From Nocardioides mangrovicus (GTDB lineage: Bacteria; Actinomycetota; Actinomycetes; Propionibacteriales; Nocardioidaceae), in assembly GCF_003674065.1 (NCBI RefSeq), contig NZ_RDBE01000001.1, positions 222,257-286,256 of the forward strand: a stretch of 64,000 nucleotides of DNA. The letters run 5' to 3'. The notes under the pieces were generated by a model. The model saw only the letters and a program-made list of their open reading frames with translations. It did not search any database and was not told the origin of the DNA. The translations under genes were made by a program, and so were the position numbers. Positions 20,183-60,426 of the stretch are shown in pieces (positions within the stretch are counted from its first letter, which is position 1; the number at the start of each line of letters is the position of its first letter).

Positions 20183-21448
20183 ATGTCGGAGACGGTCTTC
20201 ACCTACGGCGCGCCGAACCTGAAGTTCGGGCCCGGGGCGAGCGCGGAGATCGGGTTCGACCTGTCGACGATGGGCGAGGTCCGGCGGGTGCTGGTCGTCA
20301 CCGACGCCGGCGTGGCCGCCACCGGCCACCCGCAGCGGGTGGCCGAGCAGCTGGCCGGCTTCGGCCTGAGCGCCGAGGTCTACGACGGCGCGCACGTTGA
20401 GCCCACCGACGAGAGCCTCGCCGCAGCGGCCGAGTGGGCCCGGGCGAATGGGCCCTGGGACGCCTTCGTCGCCGTGGGCGGCGGCTCGGCCATCGACACC
20501 GCGAAGGCCGTCGACCTGCTCACCACGAACCCGGGGGAGGTGCGCGACTACCTCAACGCGCCGGTGGGGTCGGCCCGCTCGCCCGAGCACCCGCTGAAGC
20601 CGCTCGTGGCCGTGCCGACCACCACCGGCACCGGCTCGGAGTCGACGACGGTGTGCGTCCTCGACGTCCTCTCGCTGCGCGTGAAGACCGGCATCTCCCA
20701 TCCCCGGCTGCGACCGGCGCTCGCCGTGGTCGACCCCGACCTCGTCGGCAGCCAGCCCGCGGGCGTCACGGCGGCCTCGGGGATGGACATCTTGTGCCAC
20801 GCCCTGGAGAGCTACACCGCTCGTCCCTACACCTCGCTGCCGGCGAAGCGGGCCGAGCAGCGTGTGCCCTACTGCGGCGCCAACCCCGTCTCGGACATGT
20901 GGGCGCGCGAGGCGCTGCGGCTGCTCGCGGGCTCGTTCCGGCGGGCCGTGGCCGACGGGGAGGACCGCCAGGCGCGCGCCGACATGGCGCTCGCCGCCAC
21001 CTATGCCGGCATGGGCATCGGCAACGCCGGGGTGCACATCCCGCACGCGAACGCCTACCCGATCGCCGGCCAGGTCCGCGACTTCCACCCCGACGGATAC
21101 CCCGACAGCGAGCCGATGGTGCCGCACGGCATGGCGGTGGCGCTGACCGCGCCGGAGAGCTTCCGGTTCACCTACGAGGCCGACCCGGGACGTCACGAGC
21201 ACGCGGCCGACCTGCTCGAGCCCGGGGTGGTCCACGAGGGGCCCGATGCGCTGCCACGGGTGCTGCTCGCGCTGATGCGCGACATCGCGATCCCCGACGG
21301 TCTCGGCGCCGTCGGCTACACCGAGGCCGACACGGCCGGCCTGGCGCAGGGGGCGCTCCAGCAGCAGCGGCTGCTGGCCATCGCGCCGCTCGAGGTCGAC
21401 GAGGACGTCGTCGCGGGGATCATGAGCCGCTCGATGTCGCTGTGGTGA
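20183..21448 (+). CDS. Hydroxyacid-oxoacid transhydrogenase-type iron alcohol dehydrogenase
   Basis: 421 aa, ATG start. Type III metal-dependent alcohol dehydrogenase: nucleotide motif GGGSAID at 99-105, TTTGTGSE at about 146-153, metal ligands Asp202 and His206 (GMDILCHALESY), and later His in PHANAYP and VPHGMAV. The stretch SLPAKRAEQRVPYCGANPVSDMWA matches the HOT/ADHFE1 branch, which carries an insert here. HOT moves a hydride from 4-hydroxybutyrate to 2-oxoglutarate, giving succinate semialdehyde and D-2-hydroxyglutarate. The stop overlaps the FAD-FeS oxidase start, and this pairing supports the HOT reading. Other alcohols cannot be ruled out. Confidence 0.8.
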   Translation: MSETVFTYGAPNLKFGPGASAEIGFDLSTMGEVRRVLVVTDAGVAATGHPQRVAEQLAGFGLSAEVYDGAHVEPTDESLAAAAEWARANGPWDAFVAVGGGSAIDTAKAVDLLTTNPGEVRDYLNAPVGSARSPEHPLKPLVAVPTTTGTGSESTTVCVLDVLSLRVKTGISHPRLRPALAVVDPDLVGSQPAGVTAASGMDILCHALESYTARPYTSLPAKRAEQRVPYCGANPVSDMWAREALRLLAGSFRRAVADGEDRQARADMALAATYAGMGIGNAGVHIPHANAYPIAGQVRDFHPDGYPDSEPMVPHGMAVALTAPESFRFTYEADPGRHEHAADLLEPGVVHEGPDALPRVLLALMRDIAIPDGLGAVGYTEADTAGLAQGALQQQRLLAIAPLEVDEDVVAGIMSRSMSLW

Positions 21449-24180
21449 GCGACCTCCTCGACGCGCTGGGACGGCACGGGGTCGGCGACGTGGACGCGAG
21501 CCCGCTCGCCCAGGCGCTCTACGCCACCGACGCCTCGCTCTACCGCGTGCCGCCCCAGGTGGTGGTCCGGCCCCGCGACGCCGACGAGGTGCTGGCCACC
21601 TTGGCGGTCGCGCGCGAGACCGGCACGCCGGTCACGATGCGCGGCGCCGGCACCTCCATCGCGGGCAACGCCGTCGGCCCGGGCATCGTCGTGGACACCC
21701 GCCGCTGGATGCACGACGTCGTCGGCGTCGACGCCGAGCGCCGGACGGCCGTGGTGCAGCCGGGTGCCGTCCACGCGACGCTGCAGCGCGCGGCCACCGC
21801 GCAGGGCCTGCGCTTCGGCCCCGACCCGTCCACCCACACCCGGTGCACCGTCGGCGGCATGGTGGGCAACAACGCCTGTGGCTCCCGCGCGCTGGGCTAC
21901 GGCCGCACCTCGGACAACGTGGTGGGGCTGCGCGTGGCGCTCGCCGACGGGACGGTGGTCGAGCCCGGCGCCGGTCACGCCGGCGTCACCGACCTCGTGG
22001 CCGCGCACCTGGGCCTGGTGCGCACCGAGTTCGGCCGGTTCACGCGCCAGGTCTCCGGCTACTCCTTCGAGCAGCTGCTGCCCGAGCGGGGGACATCCTT
22101 CGACCGGTTCCTCGTGGGCACCGAGGGCACGCTCGCGGTGGTGCTCGAGGCCGAGGTCCGGCTGGTCGAGGACGCTCCCGCCCGGGCGCTCGCCGTGCTC
22201 GGCTACGCCTCCATGGCCGACGCCGGCGACGCCGTGCCCGCGTTGCTCTCGCATCCGCTGGTGGCCTGCGAGGGGCTGGGACGCCGGATCGTCGACGTGC
22301 TCGTGGCCCATGGCGGCTCGGTGCCGGAGCTGCCGGCCGGCGACGGCTGGCTGTTCGCCGAGGTGACCGCGTCGACGGCCTCCGAGGCGGAGGCGCTCGC
22401 GGCGGCGGTGGCGCGCGACGCCGGCGTCCCGCACCGGGTGGTGACCGACCCGGGCGAGCAGGCGACGCTGTGGCGGATCCGCGAGGACGGCGCCGGCCTG
22501 GCCGCGCGGTCGCTGGCCCGGCAGGCCAAGTCGGGCTGGGAGGACGCCGCCGTACCGCCGGCCCAGCTCGGCGCCTACCTCCGCGACTTCGACGCCCTGC
22601 TGGCGTCCTCGGGCCTCGACGGCGTGCCGTACGGCCACTTCGGCGACGGTTGCGTCCACATCCGCATCGACTTCGAGACCGACGACGCCGCGGGTCGGGC
22701 ACGGTTCCGCACCTTCGTGGAGGACTCCGCCGACCTGGTGGCCCGCTACGGCGGCTCGATGAGCGGCGAGCACGGCGACGGGCGGGCCCGCTCGGAGCTG
22801 CTGCCCAAGATGTACTCCGCCGACGCGATCGACCTGATGGGCCAGGCCAAGCGGCTGCTCGACCCCGGCAACCTGCTCAACCCGGGCGTGCTGGTCGACC
22901 CGGCGCCGTTCGACGCCTCGCTGCGGGTGGTGGGCCGCTCGCCGGTCACCTCGCTGCGGCTGGTGCACGACGGCGGCTCGTTCGCCGGTGCCGTGCACCG
23001 CTGCACCGGCGTCGGCAAGTGCTTGGCCGGGCCAGGGCCCACCGGCGTCATGTGTCCCTCCTACACCGCCACCCAGGACGAGAAGGACTCCACGCGCGGC
23101 CGGGCGCGCGTGCTGCAGGAGCTGGTCGACGGCACCGTGGTCCGCGGCTGGGACGACCCGGCGGTGGAGCAGGCGCTGGACCTGTGCCTGTCGTGCAAGG
23201 GCTGTGCCCGCGACTGCCCGACGGGCATCGACATGGCCACCTACAAGGCCGAGGCGCTGCACCAGCGCTACCGGGGACGGCGTCGTCCCCGCTCGCACTA
23301 CACGCTGGGCCGGCTGCCCCAGTGGGCCCGGCTGACCCCGCCACGACTGGCCAACGCCGCGCTGCGGGTGCCGGTGCTCGCCCGGCTGGCCAAGGCGGCG
23401 GCCGGGGTGGACCAACGGCGCTCGCTGCCCCGCTTCTCGCCGCGACCGCTGCGGACGTCATACGAACGGGTCGCTGCGGCGACCACCTCGTATGACGTCT
23501 GGCTGTGGGCCGACTCCTTCACCGACCGGTTCGCCGCCGACTCCGGCCGCGCGGCCATCGCGTTCCTCGAGGCGGCCGGACTGCGCGTCGGGGTGATCGG
23601 CGAGCAGGCCTGCTGCGGGCTGACCTGGATCAGCACAGGCCAGCTCGACGCCGCCCGCCGCATCGTGGGCGACGCGGTGGCGACGCTGCACCCCTACGTC
23701 GCCTCGGGCGTGCCGGTCGTCGGGCTGGAGCCGTCGTGCCTGGCGACCCTGCGCTCCGACGCCGTCGAGCTGCTCGACGACCCGCGCGCCGCGGTGGTGG
23801 CCGCCGGGATGCGGTCGCTGGCCGAGTTCGTCTCGACGCTGGACCGTGCGGTGCTGCCGGACCTGACCGGGGTGACGGTGATCGCCCAGCCGCACTGCCA
23901 CCACCACGCCGTCATCGGCTGGGAGGTCGACGAGGCGCTGCTCGCCGCCGCCGGCGCCACCGTGACGCGCGTGGGCGGGTGCTGCGGTCTGGCCGGCAAC
24001 TTCGGGGTCGAGCAGGGCCACTACGAGGTCTCGGTGGCGGTGGCCGAGCACGCCCTCTTGCCCGCGGTCCGCGCGGACCCCGAGGCCGTGGTCCTCGCCG
24101 ACGGCTTCTCCTGCCGCACCCAGCTCGACGACCTGGCCGGCGTGCGCGCCCTGCACCTGGCCGAGCTGCTGGCCCGATGA
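21445..24180 (+). CDS. FAD-binding and (Fe-S)-binding 2-hydroxyacid dehydrogenase
   Basis: 911 aa from the GTG overlapping the HOT stop. Order of domains: FAD_binding_4 (about 35-175; MRGAGTSIAGNAVGPG, VGGMVGNNACGSRALGYGR), FAD-oxidase C (about 210-480; GHFGDGCVHIRIDFE, GSMSGEHGDGRARSELLPKMY), an Fe-S region (about 518-595; CTGVGKC, CLSCKGCARDCP), and two CCG domains (about 720 and 845). D-lactate, glycolate and D-2-hydroxyglutarate dehydrogenases share this build. Next to HOT, D-2-hydroxyglutarate is the likely substrate, with electrons passed to quinone or another acceptor. A 46-bp palindrome is embedded in frame at residues about 670-686, between the Fe-S and CCG parts. Confidence 0.85.
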   Translation: MSDLLDALGRHGVGDVDASPLAQALYATDASLYRVPPQVVVRPRDADEVLATLAVARETGTPVTMRGAGTSIAGNAVGPGIVVDTRRWMHDVVGVDAERRTAVVQPGAVHATLQRAATAQGLRFGPDPSTHTRCTVGGMVGNNACGSRALGYGRTSDNVVGLRVALADGTVVEPGAGHAGVTDLVAAHLGLVRTEFGRFTRQVSGYSFEQLLPERGTSFDRFLVGTEGTLAVVLEAEVRLVEDAPARALAVLGYASMADAGDAVPALLSHPLVACEGLGRRIVDVLVAHGGSVPELPAGDGWLFAEVTASTASEAEALAAAVARDAGVPHRVVTDPGEQATLWRIREDGAGLAARSLARQAKSGWEDAAVPPAQLGAYLRDFDALLASSGLDGVPYGHFGDGCVHIRIDFETDDAAGRARFRTFVEDSADLVARYGGSMSGEHGDGRARSELLPKMYSADAIDLMGQAKRLLDPGNLLNPGVLVDPAPFDASLRVVGRSPVTSLRLVHDGGSFAGAVHRCTGVGKCLAGPGPTGVMCPSYTATQDEKDSTRGRARVLQELVDGTVVRGWDDPAVEQALDLCLSCKGCARDCPTGIDMATYKAEALHQRYRGRRRPRSHYTLGRLPQWARLTPPRLANAALRVPVLARLAKAAAGVDQRRSLPRFSPRPLRTSYERVAAATTSYDVWLWADSFTDRFAADSGRAAIAFLEAAGLRVGVIGEQACCGLTWISTGQLDAARRIVGDAVATLHPYVASGVPVVGLEPSCLATLRSDAVELLDDPRAAVVAAGMRSLAEFVSTLDRAVLPDLTGVTVIAQPHCHHHAVIGWEVDEALLAAAGATVTRVGGCCGLAGNFGVEQGHYEVSVAVAEHALLPAVRADPEAVVLADGFSCRTQLDDLAGVRALHLAELLAR
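23454..23499. repeat. 46-bp palindromic element, copy 1 (inside a coding sequence)
   Basis: Arms GACGTCATACGA (23454-23465) and TCGTATGACGTC (23488-23499) are perfect complements. Inside, GGTCGC and GCGACC (23469-23474, 23479-23484) form a second stem around a 4-nt loop. The element lies in frame in the FAD-FeS dehydrogenase gene. It is 39/46 identical to the reverse complement of the copy at 58695-58740. That makes it a mobile or spreading small element rather than a chance hairpin. Confidence 0.85.
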
Positions 24181-58640: not shown

Positions 58641-58682
58641 GTCGAAGGGGCCCGTCACCGCGAGGTGGCGGGCCCCTTCGAC
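58641..58682 (+). terminator. Terminator of the ribosomal super-operon
   Basis: GTCGAAGGGGCCCGTCACC (58641-58659) and its complement (58664-58682) form a 19-bp stem with one G-T pair and a GCGA tetraloop, 12 bp after the rplQ stop. Confidence 0.85.
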
Positions 58683-58694
58683 GTCGGTGGCCGA

Positions 58695-58740
58695 GACGTC
58701 ATACGTGCTGGCGCCCGGAGCGACCAGTTCGTATGACGTC
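58695..58740. repeat. 46-bp palindromic element, copy 2 (3' end of the flavoprotein gene)
   Basis: Arms GACGTCATACG (58695-58705) and CGTATGACGTC (58730-58740), same total length as the copy at 23454. On the minus strand the element supplies the last codons and the stop codon (TGA, 58699-58701) of the flavoprotein gene. Read in the same frame, copy 1 would also give DVIRTGR...V and a stop. Confidence 0.85.
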
Positions 58741-60408
58741 CTGGGCCAGTTCGGCCAGGTACGCATGCACGAGCGGCACCACGGAGGCACCCTCGCCGGA
58801 GGCGGCGGCCACCCGCTTCATCGAGCCGCCGCGGACGTCGCCGGCGGCGTAGACGCCGGGGACGGTGGTCTCCAGGTTGGCCGGCGGCAGGCCTTCGGTC
58901 CACAGGTGCTGGGGGACGTCGCGGCCGGTGAGGACGAAGCCGTGCTCGTCGCGGCAGATCGGCTCGGGGATCCAGTCGCAGTGCGGCGAGGCGCCCAGCA
59001 GCAGGAAGAGACCGGCCGCCTCGTGGCGCGCGACGGTGCCGTCGGTGAGGTCGCGCACATCGATCCACTCCAGCGAGGCCTCGCCGCCGCCGTCGACGAC
59101 CTCGGCGCAGGGCCGGATGGAGACGACCGGGTTGAAGGCGATCTCGCGGACCAGGTAGTCCGACATCGTCTCGGAGACCTCGGGGCGCCGGATCAGGATC
59201 GTCACCGAGCGGGCGAAGCGCGAGAGGTGCAGCGCGGCCTGACCGGCGGAGTTGCCGCCGCCGACCACGAACACGTCGCGGCCGTCCATGTCGCGGGCGG
59301 CACTGACGGCGGCGCCGTAGTGGACGCCGCGGCCGATGAGGTCGTCGACGGCGGGTACGCCGAGCCGCCGGTAGGCGACGCCGGAGGAGATGACCACCGA
59401 GCGGGCACGGACCTCGCCGCTCTCGGTGACCAGCCGGTGGGGCTCCCCGTCGGTGCCGGCGACCAGCGAGGTGACCGGCAGGCCGGTGAAGAAGCGCGTG
59501 CCGAACCGGATGGCCTGGCTGCGGGCGCGCTGGGCCAGCCGCATGCCGGAGATGCCGCGCGGGAAGCCGAGGTAGTTGCGGATCATCGAGCTGGTGCCGG
59601 CCTGCCCGCCGACGGCCTCGGCCTCGACGACGACGGTCGACAGGCCCTCGGAGGAGGCATAGACGGCGGCCGCCAGACCGGCCGGGCCGGCCCCGACGAT
59701 GGCGACGTCGACGACCGTGTCGACGTCGACCTCGTCGGGTCGCCCGTAGATGCTGACCGCGACGTCGCGCACGGATGAGACCGGTTCGGGGACGCCGCGG
59801 GAGAACGCCCAGATGACCGGCAGCCGGCCCTGGTCATCGGGCGGCAGCTGGCCCAGCACGCGCCGGCCGACCTCGGAGTCGGGTGAGTAGACGCGGCTGG
59901 GCATGCCCATCCGGTCGAGGAAGTCGCGGATGGCGCCCACGACGGGATCGTGGGCGGTGGCGATGATCTTGGTCGACGGCACCTCTGGGTCGGGCACGGT
60001 GGAGCCCCAGTCGGAGAGCAGCTCGGTGAGCGCACCGTGGAACTCCTCGTCGCGGACCCCGCGTGGCATCAGCAGGTAGGCGTCGTACTTGCCCAGGGCC
60101 AACGCCGGGCGCAGCCCGTCGGCGTCCTCGCGGAACCGGGTGTAGTGGGCCGCGACGACGCGGCGGGCGGTGGGCACCAGGGTGCGCCACTCGTGGAAGG
60201 CCCAGAGGATCTCGGCGTCGGGCAGCGTCGACTCGGTGACGATGAGCGCCACCTGACGGCCCGCGTCGACCAGCTCACGGAGGCGCTCGTAGGACTCGGC
60301 CCCGCTCGTGGTGCAGACGACGTCGTACTCGCGCTCGTAGCGGGCGAGCTGCTCGCAGAGCACGTCGTCGTGCGCGGGGGCACAGATGAGGATGACCGGG
60401 GAGGGCAC
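58699..60408 (-). CDS. Fused receiver-like / thioredoxin-reductase-like flavoprotein
   Basis: 569 aa from the GTG at 60408; a GTG at 60423 adds five residues but lies over the truA -10 box. The N-terminal roughly 200 residues ([20 protein letters not shown]) resemble a degenerate response-regulator-like domain pair. A FAD-binding [17 protein letters not shown] begins near 231 and an NADPH-binding [18 protein letters not shown] near 378. The redox-active CxxC of thioredoxin reductase is missing: its place reads [11 protein letters not shown]. So disulfide reduction of thioredoxin is unlikely; ferredoxin/NADP reduction or signalling are alternatives. C-terminal 12 residues come from a palindromic repeat. 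Confidence 0.83.
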
Positions 60409-60413
60409 CTCAC

Positions 60414-60419
60414 TATTCT
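60414..60419 (+). promoter_or_regulatory. Candidate -10 box, leaderless truA
   Basis: TATTCT lies 7 nt before the GTG of truA in the short divergent gap. No clear -35 box. Confidence 0.4.
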
Positions 60420-60426
60420 TCACCGG

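Follow-up and report, generated by a model that had tools for sequence, protein, structure and literature searches.

A dispersed 46-bp palindrome in Nocardioides and related genomes and the DUF559-like nuclease genes beside it

Palindromic elements in the window and in related genomes

A 64,000-nt stretch of the Nocardioides mangrovicus genome (contig NZ_RDBE01000001.1, positions 222,257 to 286,256), referred to here as the window, contains two copies of a 46-bp palindromic element (Table 1). The first lies inside a dehydrogenase gene, in the linker with the Fe-S domain on one side and the CCG domain on the other, and the second overlaps the end of a gene on the minus strand. Copies are dispersed over this genome and those of relatives and flank the genes of a nuclease family, with which they probably form a system resembling the repetitive extragenic palindromes (REPs) and their REP-associated tyrosine transposases (RAYTs). 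Bare positions are those of the window; other genomes and loci carry G and L handles, and G000 (4.1 Mb, 23 contigs) is the genome of the window itself.

Table 1. Palindromic elements in the window and the genes that they overlap.
Feature	Position	Strand	Remarks
46-bp palindromic element (two 23-bp inverted halves)	23454..23499	.	Inside the FAD/Fe-S dehydrogenase coding sequence; frame reads RTSYERVAAATTSYDV
Second 46-bp copy	58695..58740	.	Read on the minus strand, ends the minus-strand gene with a 13-residue tail (by eye) and a stop codon (GTA TGA)
Host gene, FAD-linked oxidase / 4Fe-4S / CCG-domain dehydrogenase	21442..24180	+	Pfam FAD_binding_4, FAD-oxidase_C, Fer4_8, CCG; start is the analysis's own gene call
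Gene with last codons and stop inside the 58695 element	58699..60423	-	Own gene call

An earlier reading of the window, made from sequence alone (the sequence-only reading), described a near-complete palindrome of two nested stems at 23454, a second copy at 58695 in the opposite orientation, and an expectation of many more in the genome, all of which are borne out. Direct reading and folding of the first copy give an outer stem of 12 bp, an inner stem of 6 bp, a 3x3 internal loop and a 4-nt loop, with a fold energy of -32.1 kcal/mol (z -7.26) that was equalled by 0 of 200 shuffles. The second copy is identical to it at 39 of 46 positions, counted by eye in reverse orientation. There are no other arms in the 64-kb window at 0 or 1 mismatch, window 12-mers with 2-3 arm mismatches are not above chance (35 total matches, 52.7 expected), and no further CGTCAT-N30-ATGACG occurs in the window at up to 2 mismatches. 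Rfam gave no match over the 23454 element and three weak matches beside it. Immediately before the second palindrome, positions 58641-58682 form a strong hairpin, GTCGAAGGGGCCCG...CGGGCCCCTTCGAC (by eye), which is likely a terminator.

A search of G000 for exact 11-bp arms, with spacers of 10-40 permitted, found 17 copies, every one 46 bp long. Allowing up to 3 arm mismatches raised the number to 33, and the reversed-pattern control gave 0 in both cases. Copies are present in 12 of 24 genus genomes. Arms of the form CGTCATRCG have matches in 69 of 197 genomes of the family Nocardioidaceae, in 7 of 26 genera, and among the matches listed 77 of 80 named contigs belong to Nocardioides, Marmoricola or Mumia. 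The pattern CGTCAT-N30-ATGACG has at least one copy in 105 of the 197 genomes (reversed control, 0), and the copy number per genome ranges from 0 to 104 within this one family. A second palindrome family, CGTCATCAGGATCGTGG, shares arrays with the CGTCATACG family (L256, L263 and L261; G009).

The anatomy of the element was taken from 247 unique copies in the fetched loci, and since arm matches were used to collect these, part of the arm conservation is a product of the sampling. CGTCAT and its complement hardly vary, position 9 holds either A or G, and the outer two and the 24 inner bases are variable. The inner stem covaries, with complementarity at pairs 15-20 that is 8.6 to 11.2 standard deviations (SD) above re-dealt partners and 2-4 pair types each, and with little covariation at pairs 14 and 21 (0.7 and 1.7 SD); these statistics ignore the relatedness of the sequences. 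Tandem copies less than 100 bp apart have spacings of 50-52, 62-65, 73-75, 84-85 and 90-94 bp, and longer spacings are scattered. At a period of 10.5 bp the phase strength reaches 0.65 (14 distinct spacings, approximate p 0.003), and periods of 10-11 bp are about equal. Flank preferences are for G at -1 (0.70) and for C at -3 (0.60) and -5 (0.61).

By the gene calls of our own codon-usage caller, 219 of the 247 copies are intergenic, 18 lie across a gene end and 10 are within a gene. The distinct copy-bearing intergenic regions (143) comprise 69 co-oriented, 62 convergent and 12 divergent regions, against 226, 81 and 120 for the whole set of intergenic regions (minimum 50 bp) in L062-L177. There is a preference for convergent gene ends, in a sample that is biased because most of the loci were retrieved by way of the element itself. 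This distribution, and a slightly higher count of G-U than of A-C on the transcribed strand (145 vs 107, p 0.02, relatedness ignored), would suit palindromes that are primarily hairpins of host transcripts, either terminators or protectors of mRNA 3' ends, with a nuclease that uses one of them as its operator or lives among them. We consider such a role improbable, as a terminator needs no fixed length of 46 bp, no helical phasing, no genome-specific arms and no flanking of a nuclease gene on two sides.

All 10 intragenic copies are in an open frame, seven in the frame that gives TSY...SYDV when the copy is intact, three in the RHT...RMTS frame and none in the stop frame. Because 46 is not a multiple of 3, 'in frame' means only that the element can be read without a stop in two of three frames. 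The sequence-only reading compared the in-frame placement in a domain linker with the Rickettsia palindromic elements (RPEs); this part stands for the copies that do lie in protein linkers, but most copies are intergenic. Kinship with the RPEs is plausible, given arms that begin CGTCAT and the correspondence of R. conorii intragenic repeats to RPE-4 and RPE-6 in the passages of Di Nocera 2013 (PMC3733652) drawn on here.

Alignment of the dehydrogenases did not reveal the clean insertion at residues ~670-686 that the same reading would lead one to expect. The linker that follows PLR is hypervariable: the segment from RRSLP to DSFT ranges from 33 to 46 residues among orthologues, with 36 in the window gene, and measures 36, 40 and 43 where an element is present and 33-46 where there is none, so an insertion of ~16 residues at 23454 is not demonstrated. 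The DVW that follows the 23454 element is also present in nearly all genus orthologues that lack the element, and the last GACGTC of the element therefore coincides with older sequence. The same linker holds a palindrome in three genus genomes, G008 (L035:2197), G015 (L037:3609) and G000.

A carboxyltransferase linker is a second shared hot spot (L279:667, L276, L098:5517 and L292), with the element in G000, G008, the contig of a metagenome-assembled genome (L098) and, as a loose match, G078. Segments with the element there are 24, 35, 41 and 34 residues long, respectively, and those without it have a median of 22 (16-46, 27 loci). In the biotin carboxylase of G000 (L279:3048) the element lies in a conserved part and the protein is about 1 residue longer than many orthologues, which raises the question of replacement rather than insertion. 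Intragenic copies may have arisen either by insertion followed by trimming or by replacement of DNA.

A nuclease gene flanked by palindromes

Clustering of neighbouring genes returned one protein family in 15 loci, and in the first loci all 11 palindrome pairs that are 1000-1200 bp apart bracket its gene. Nine other pairs, 600-3000 bp apart, bracket genes other than the nuclease. The G000 gene is outside the window at G000:C1:538051-538947, with palindromes at 537857, 537920 and 538987 around it. This gene and its relatives encode proteins of ~310 residues with an N-terminal AbiEi-like module and a C-terminal DUF559/Vsr-like domain. A structure model built from nine sequences has a predicted local distance difference test (pLDDT) score of 81.6, and Foldseek matched it to the AbiEi antitoxin 6y8q_A (E 2.5e-5, the sole match under 0.001), with Rv2827c (1zel_A) at E 6.2e-3. 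PADLOC called AbiEi in 3 of 3 proteins (best E 6e-9), with weaker matches to methyl-directed restriction enzymes, and Pfam AbiEi_4 was below its cut-off. Residues E209, D240, E251, D253 and H257 (L123 numbering) are invariant in 13 sequences. Over the 197 genomes, bit scores separate the nuclease subfamily (at least 260, 56 genomes) from other paralogues (at most 190), and tblastn detected no copy of the G000 nuclease in plasmids.

Two nuclease genes are candidates for decay after loss of function, one with an in-frame stop and no palindrome by the strict scan described below (L237, G104), the other split in two frames with the palindromes still there (L332, G118). In G029, two near-identical perfect palindromes (L185:1499 and 2963) flank a non-nuclease gene that looks by eye like a zinc-dependent dehydrogenase.

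The strict scan recorded 46-bp palindromes up to 350 bp upstream or 250 bp downstream of the nuclease gene, and covered 62 of the 74 listed Nocardioidaceae matches of at least 260 bits. Palindromes were found on at least one side in 55 of these 62 loci (both sides in 30; 7 fail) and in 12 of 13 loci from two other families (both sides in 10). Distant DUF559 paralogues (n = 20), meant as negative controls, proved to be flanked as well, 16 on at least one side and 8 on both, and biotin carboxylase and dehydrogenase loci therefore serve as the background. These gave 1/30 on the left and 0/30 on the right for biotin carboxylase and 2/25 and 1/25 for the dehydrogenase, with none on both sides. A looser scan found a palindrome on at least one side in 62/62 Nocardioidaceae loci, 12/13 in the two other families and 17/20 distant paralogues, and on both sides in 47, 11 and 13, over a background of 5 and 3 of 30 (0 both) for biotin carboxylase and 7 and 4 of 25 (1 both) for the dehydrogenase. 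Among controls of the palindrome scan, shuffled windows gave 3/475, and 8 hits fell within the 76.8 kb of the nuclease genes themselves. Of the 12 listed Nocardioidaceae matches outside the scan, those in G002, G009 and G103 are flanked by listed copies.

If the palindromes were operator sites only, the AbiEi module would repress its own gene through them and the dispersed copies would be a regulon. AbiEi proteins do autoregulate through inverted repeats in the passages of PMC7319586 available to us, and an upstream copy is present in 41 of the 62 nuclease loci. A purely regulatory role is nonetheless very hard to credit, as downstream copies are equally frequent (44/62) and dispersed copies avoid divergent promoters and occur in coding sequence.

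The nuclease and the palindrome also co-occur. At least 5 copies of CGTCAT-N30-ATGACG are present in 48 of 56 nuclease-positive genomes and in 15 of the 141 others (Fisher p 3.5e-24, 197 genomes), with a median of 18 copies with the nuclease and 0 without.

Arms beside the nuclease vary by locus, including CGTCATACG, CGTCATCCG, CGTCATGGC, CGTCATCAC, CGTCATGAG, CGTGTGACG, CGTCCTACG, CGTCCGAAG, TTGTCAG and others, and the changes are mostly on both sides at once. The genes of G125 and G144 have CGTCATCC and CGTCATCAC, respectively, and that of G127 has two arm types. Three arm types are dispersed genome-wide; for two of these, no genome in which the arm was seen beside the nuclease lacks dispersed copies. 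TTGTCAG arms are dispersed in 12 of 197 genomes, among them all 4 where this arm had previously been seen beside a nuclease paralogue; G034 has 49 copies, G078 29, G066 12 and G025 7, and in G080 the listed copies bracket a paralogue. In the order, 21 of 293 genomes have arms of the CGTCCGAA type; all 21 belong to a single genus out of 37, and they include all 8 that are nuclease-positive (93 to 2 copies). Arm types are matched to nuclease subfamilies, and in 81 loci arm identity correlates with that of the nuclease (Mantel r 0.54, 0/2000 permutations).

Comparison with known systems and proposed mode of spread

In the portions of Di Nocera 2013 (PMC3733652) used for this comparison, REPs are split into GTAG and CGTC groups, and no dedicated transposase is given for the latter. 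GTAG REPs with their RAYT genes (REPtrons) are likewise short, dispersed, multi-copy palindromes that favour gene 3' ends and flank the enzyme gene, and they too form several repeat families with repeat-specific enzyme genes. The elements described here differ in having no GTAG tag, in being longer, strictly 46 bp and palindromic over the whole length, and in a partner that joins an AbiEi-like domain to a predicted nuclease of PD-(D/E)XK type and is not an HUH tyrosine transposase. The RAYT partner that the sequence-only reading had anticipated is not supported; the Y1 (HUH) transposase PF01797 had matches in none of the 24 genus genomes (0 of 24) and in 5 of 14 control genomes.

CGTC-tagged REPs, in the same portions of that paper, are reported from five phyla, Actinobacteria not among them, and have no associated transposase. 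They share with the present elements a stem base of CGTC followed by AT, a 4-nt loop, and both intergenic and intragenic copies. Their stem is 8-9 bp, with an unpaired CGTC, a loop of 4-5 and a short, mostly CCA tail, whereas here the stems are 12 and 6 bp, CGTC is paired with GACG and the elements flank a nuclease gene. Miniature inverted-repeat transposable elements would be expected to have a target-site duplication and a transposon that shares their terminal repeats. A unit with palindromes at its two ends does occur here, but around a nuclease gene, and no clean empty site was seen in the comparison of G002 and G009 given below.

The predicted fold of the N-terminal part is that of AbiEi antitoxins (type IV toxin-antitoxin systems) and Rv2827c, known members of which bind paired 23-bp inverted repeats; here this part is fused to a nuclease domain and the sites are dispersed genome-wide. 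According to the excerpted parts of PMC7319586, AbiEi binds two 23-bp inverted repeats with a 3-bp separation, and Rv2827c binds pairs of 23-bp repeats with a 4-bp gap. The C-terminal domain resembles in sequence the DUF559/Vsr-like endonucleases E. coli YcjD and Caulobacter VsrA, although YcjD is a small, single-domain protein of 117 aa. The literature passages at hand contain no description that links YcjD or VsrA to repeats. In the VsrA paper (PMC12907096, seen in part) 'palindrom' is absent as a whole word, inflected forms lying outside that search, and 'nuclease' and 'transposase' are absent from the main text of the 2025 RepRanger paper (PMC12306157) as far as it was available. A search of titles and the starts of abstracts, with subscription papers and preprints outside its reach, found neither a published link between DUF559 and palindromes nor a published description of REP-like elements in actinobacteria.

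The best explanation, and probably the correct one, is that the element, a dispersed palindrome of REP-like kind, has a dedicated nuclease as its partner, as in a REP/RAYT system but with an unrelated enzyme. The AbiEi module would bind the two 23-bp halves of the palindrome as double-stranded DNA, which would account for both the fixed length of 46 bp and the spacing of tandem copies in phase with the helix. Hairpin or cruciform recognition may also be considered, but AbiEi sites of 23-bp repeats, the relation 2 x 23 = 46 and the phasing favour double-stranded recognition. The nuclease would then nick or cut at the palindrome, and repair or templated copying would place new copies elsewhere. 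Selection would clear copies from promoters and most coding sequence, leaving those at gene 3' ends and in a few tolerant protein linkers.

Mobility was assessed from G002 and G009, which share about 92% DNA identity, at 11 element sites. The base-by-base comparison left out the aligned sites L240, L241, L247, L249 and L253, and no aligned counterpart of the element site was found between the two genomes for L238, L255, L265, L266 and L271. Differences in copy number are mainly inside existing arrays, for example 1 vs 4 strict copies in L251/L261. In L252 a copy adjoins a 2.5-kb stretch that is absent from G009, and the G009 palindrome in L258 (L258:4207) has as its counterpart in G002 ~14.6 kb of other DNA (L254:336 to L309:2929).

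Array-confined changes of this kind would be expected if the nuclease only cuts, at palindromes or at palindrome-free sites, and repair from another copy homogenises or locally spreads the palindrome without true transposition. The unit would persist as a selfish one, or as a nuclease for DNA integrity or defence that is marked by its own sites. A nuclease joined to AbiEi-like domains is in keeping with this, as is the Caulobacter DUF559 protein VsrA, which in the parts of PMC12907096 available is responsible for an SOS response in cells lacking a methyltransferase. Copies at many unrelated sites, and numbers from 0 to 104 per genome in one family, call for dispersal as well, and homing or cutting by itself is for us an unlikely account.

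Several observations weigh against a dispersing nuclease. None of the 11 G002/G009 sites revealed a transposition event, a new copy or a clean empty site; 9 are occupied in both genomes, sometimes by a different element type, and at the remaining two the copy-free genome also differs by kilobases. The identity of the enzyme is open to question in that Pfam DUF559 is above its cut-off in 2 of 4 proteins and below it in the other 2, a part of the nuclease domain has low confidence in the model (pLDDT under 50 at residues 256-274), and the five invariant residues are putative PD-(D/E)XK residues by our own reading of conserved columns. Co-occurrence is incomplete, since the 15 nuclease-free genomes with at least 5 copies fit loss of the enzyme but fit independence too, 8 of the 56 nuclease-positive genomes hold fewer than 5 copies, and G080 has the nuclease and no CGTCAT copy. 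The TTGTCAG arm was observed beside a nuclease in only 5 of the 12 genomes with such copies, and a search at E 1e-70 yielded no nuclease match for 13 of the 21 genomes that have CGTCCGAA copies. The correlation between arms and nucleases is weak within Nocardioidaceae alone (53 loci, r 0.21, 59/2000), and joint divergence is what linkage of an arm to its nuclease would produce in any case. A role in RNA would be in line with the weak G-U excess on transcribed strands.

REP-like palindromes are common in bacterial genomes, and in the papers considered, each in part, a known enzyme is given only for the GTAG group. A lineage-specific palindrome carried by a nuclease family of unknown role makes the spread of other REPs testable, and it touches the open question of what moves CGTC-tagged REPs. 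The association hints at what DUF559 proteins may do, and it connects the AbiEi fold of toxin-antitoxin systems with a repeat-associated function. As a practical handle, the DNA next to the nuclease gene reveals the arm sequence of a genome.

Standalone DUF559 genes outside the actinobacteria

A query with E. coli ycjD returned 47 plasmid-collection records with DUF559, and 17 loci were analysed, 16 from these records, with preference for genera named as CGTC-positive, plus ycjD itself. An inverted repeat of at least 22 bp between the flanks was found in 8 of the 17. The lengths are 63 bp in S. meliloti, 37 in Novosphingobium, 35 in Deinococcus, 27 in Sinorhizobium, 24 in Azospirillum lipoferum, 23 and 22 in two Sphingomonas and 23 in Qipengyuania. 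Among the controls, 0/680 shuffles, 0/172 other windows and 0/30 biotin-carboxylase loci reached 16 bp. A point on the other side is that 9 of the 17 loci, including E. coli ycjD and N. gonorrhoeae, have only 8 to 14 bp between the flanks; some of these nine have a hairpin on one side, and Sphingobium has one on both.

The S. meliloti hairpin is dispersed (1382 places, 306 records), as is that of Sphingomonas (137 places, 23 records). The Novosphingobium repeat, CGTCATTTGC...GCAAATGCCACC, is CGTC-tagged, and the plasmid collection holds no copies beyond its two; CGTC hairpins were present at 1 of 12 alphaproteobacterial DUF559 loci. It is possible, and proposed here only tentatively, that the DUF559/Vsr-like nucleases of several phyla form a second class of REP-dispersing enzymes, distinct from the HUH type, which occur as AbiEi fusions with 46-bp palindromes in actinobacteria and elsewhere as small proteins with dispersed hairpins, among them one Novosphingobium with the CGTC-tagged hairpins that lacked a dedicated enzyme in 2013. 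In Sphingomonas parapaucimobilis, a standalone DUF559 gene (L384:1486-1896) lies between sufB and sufC with inverted hairpins on both sides.

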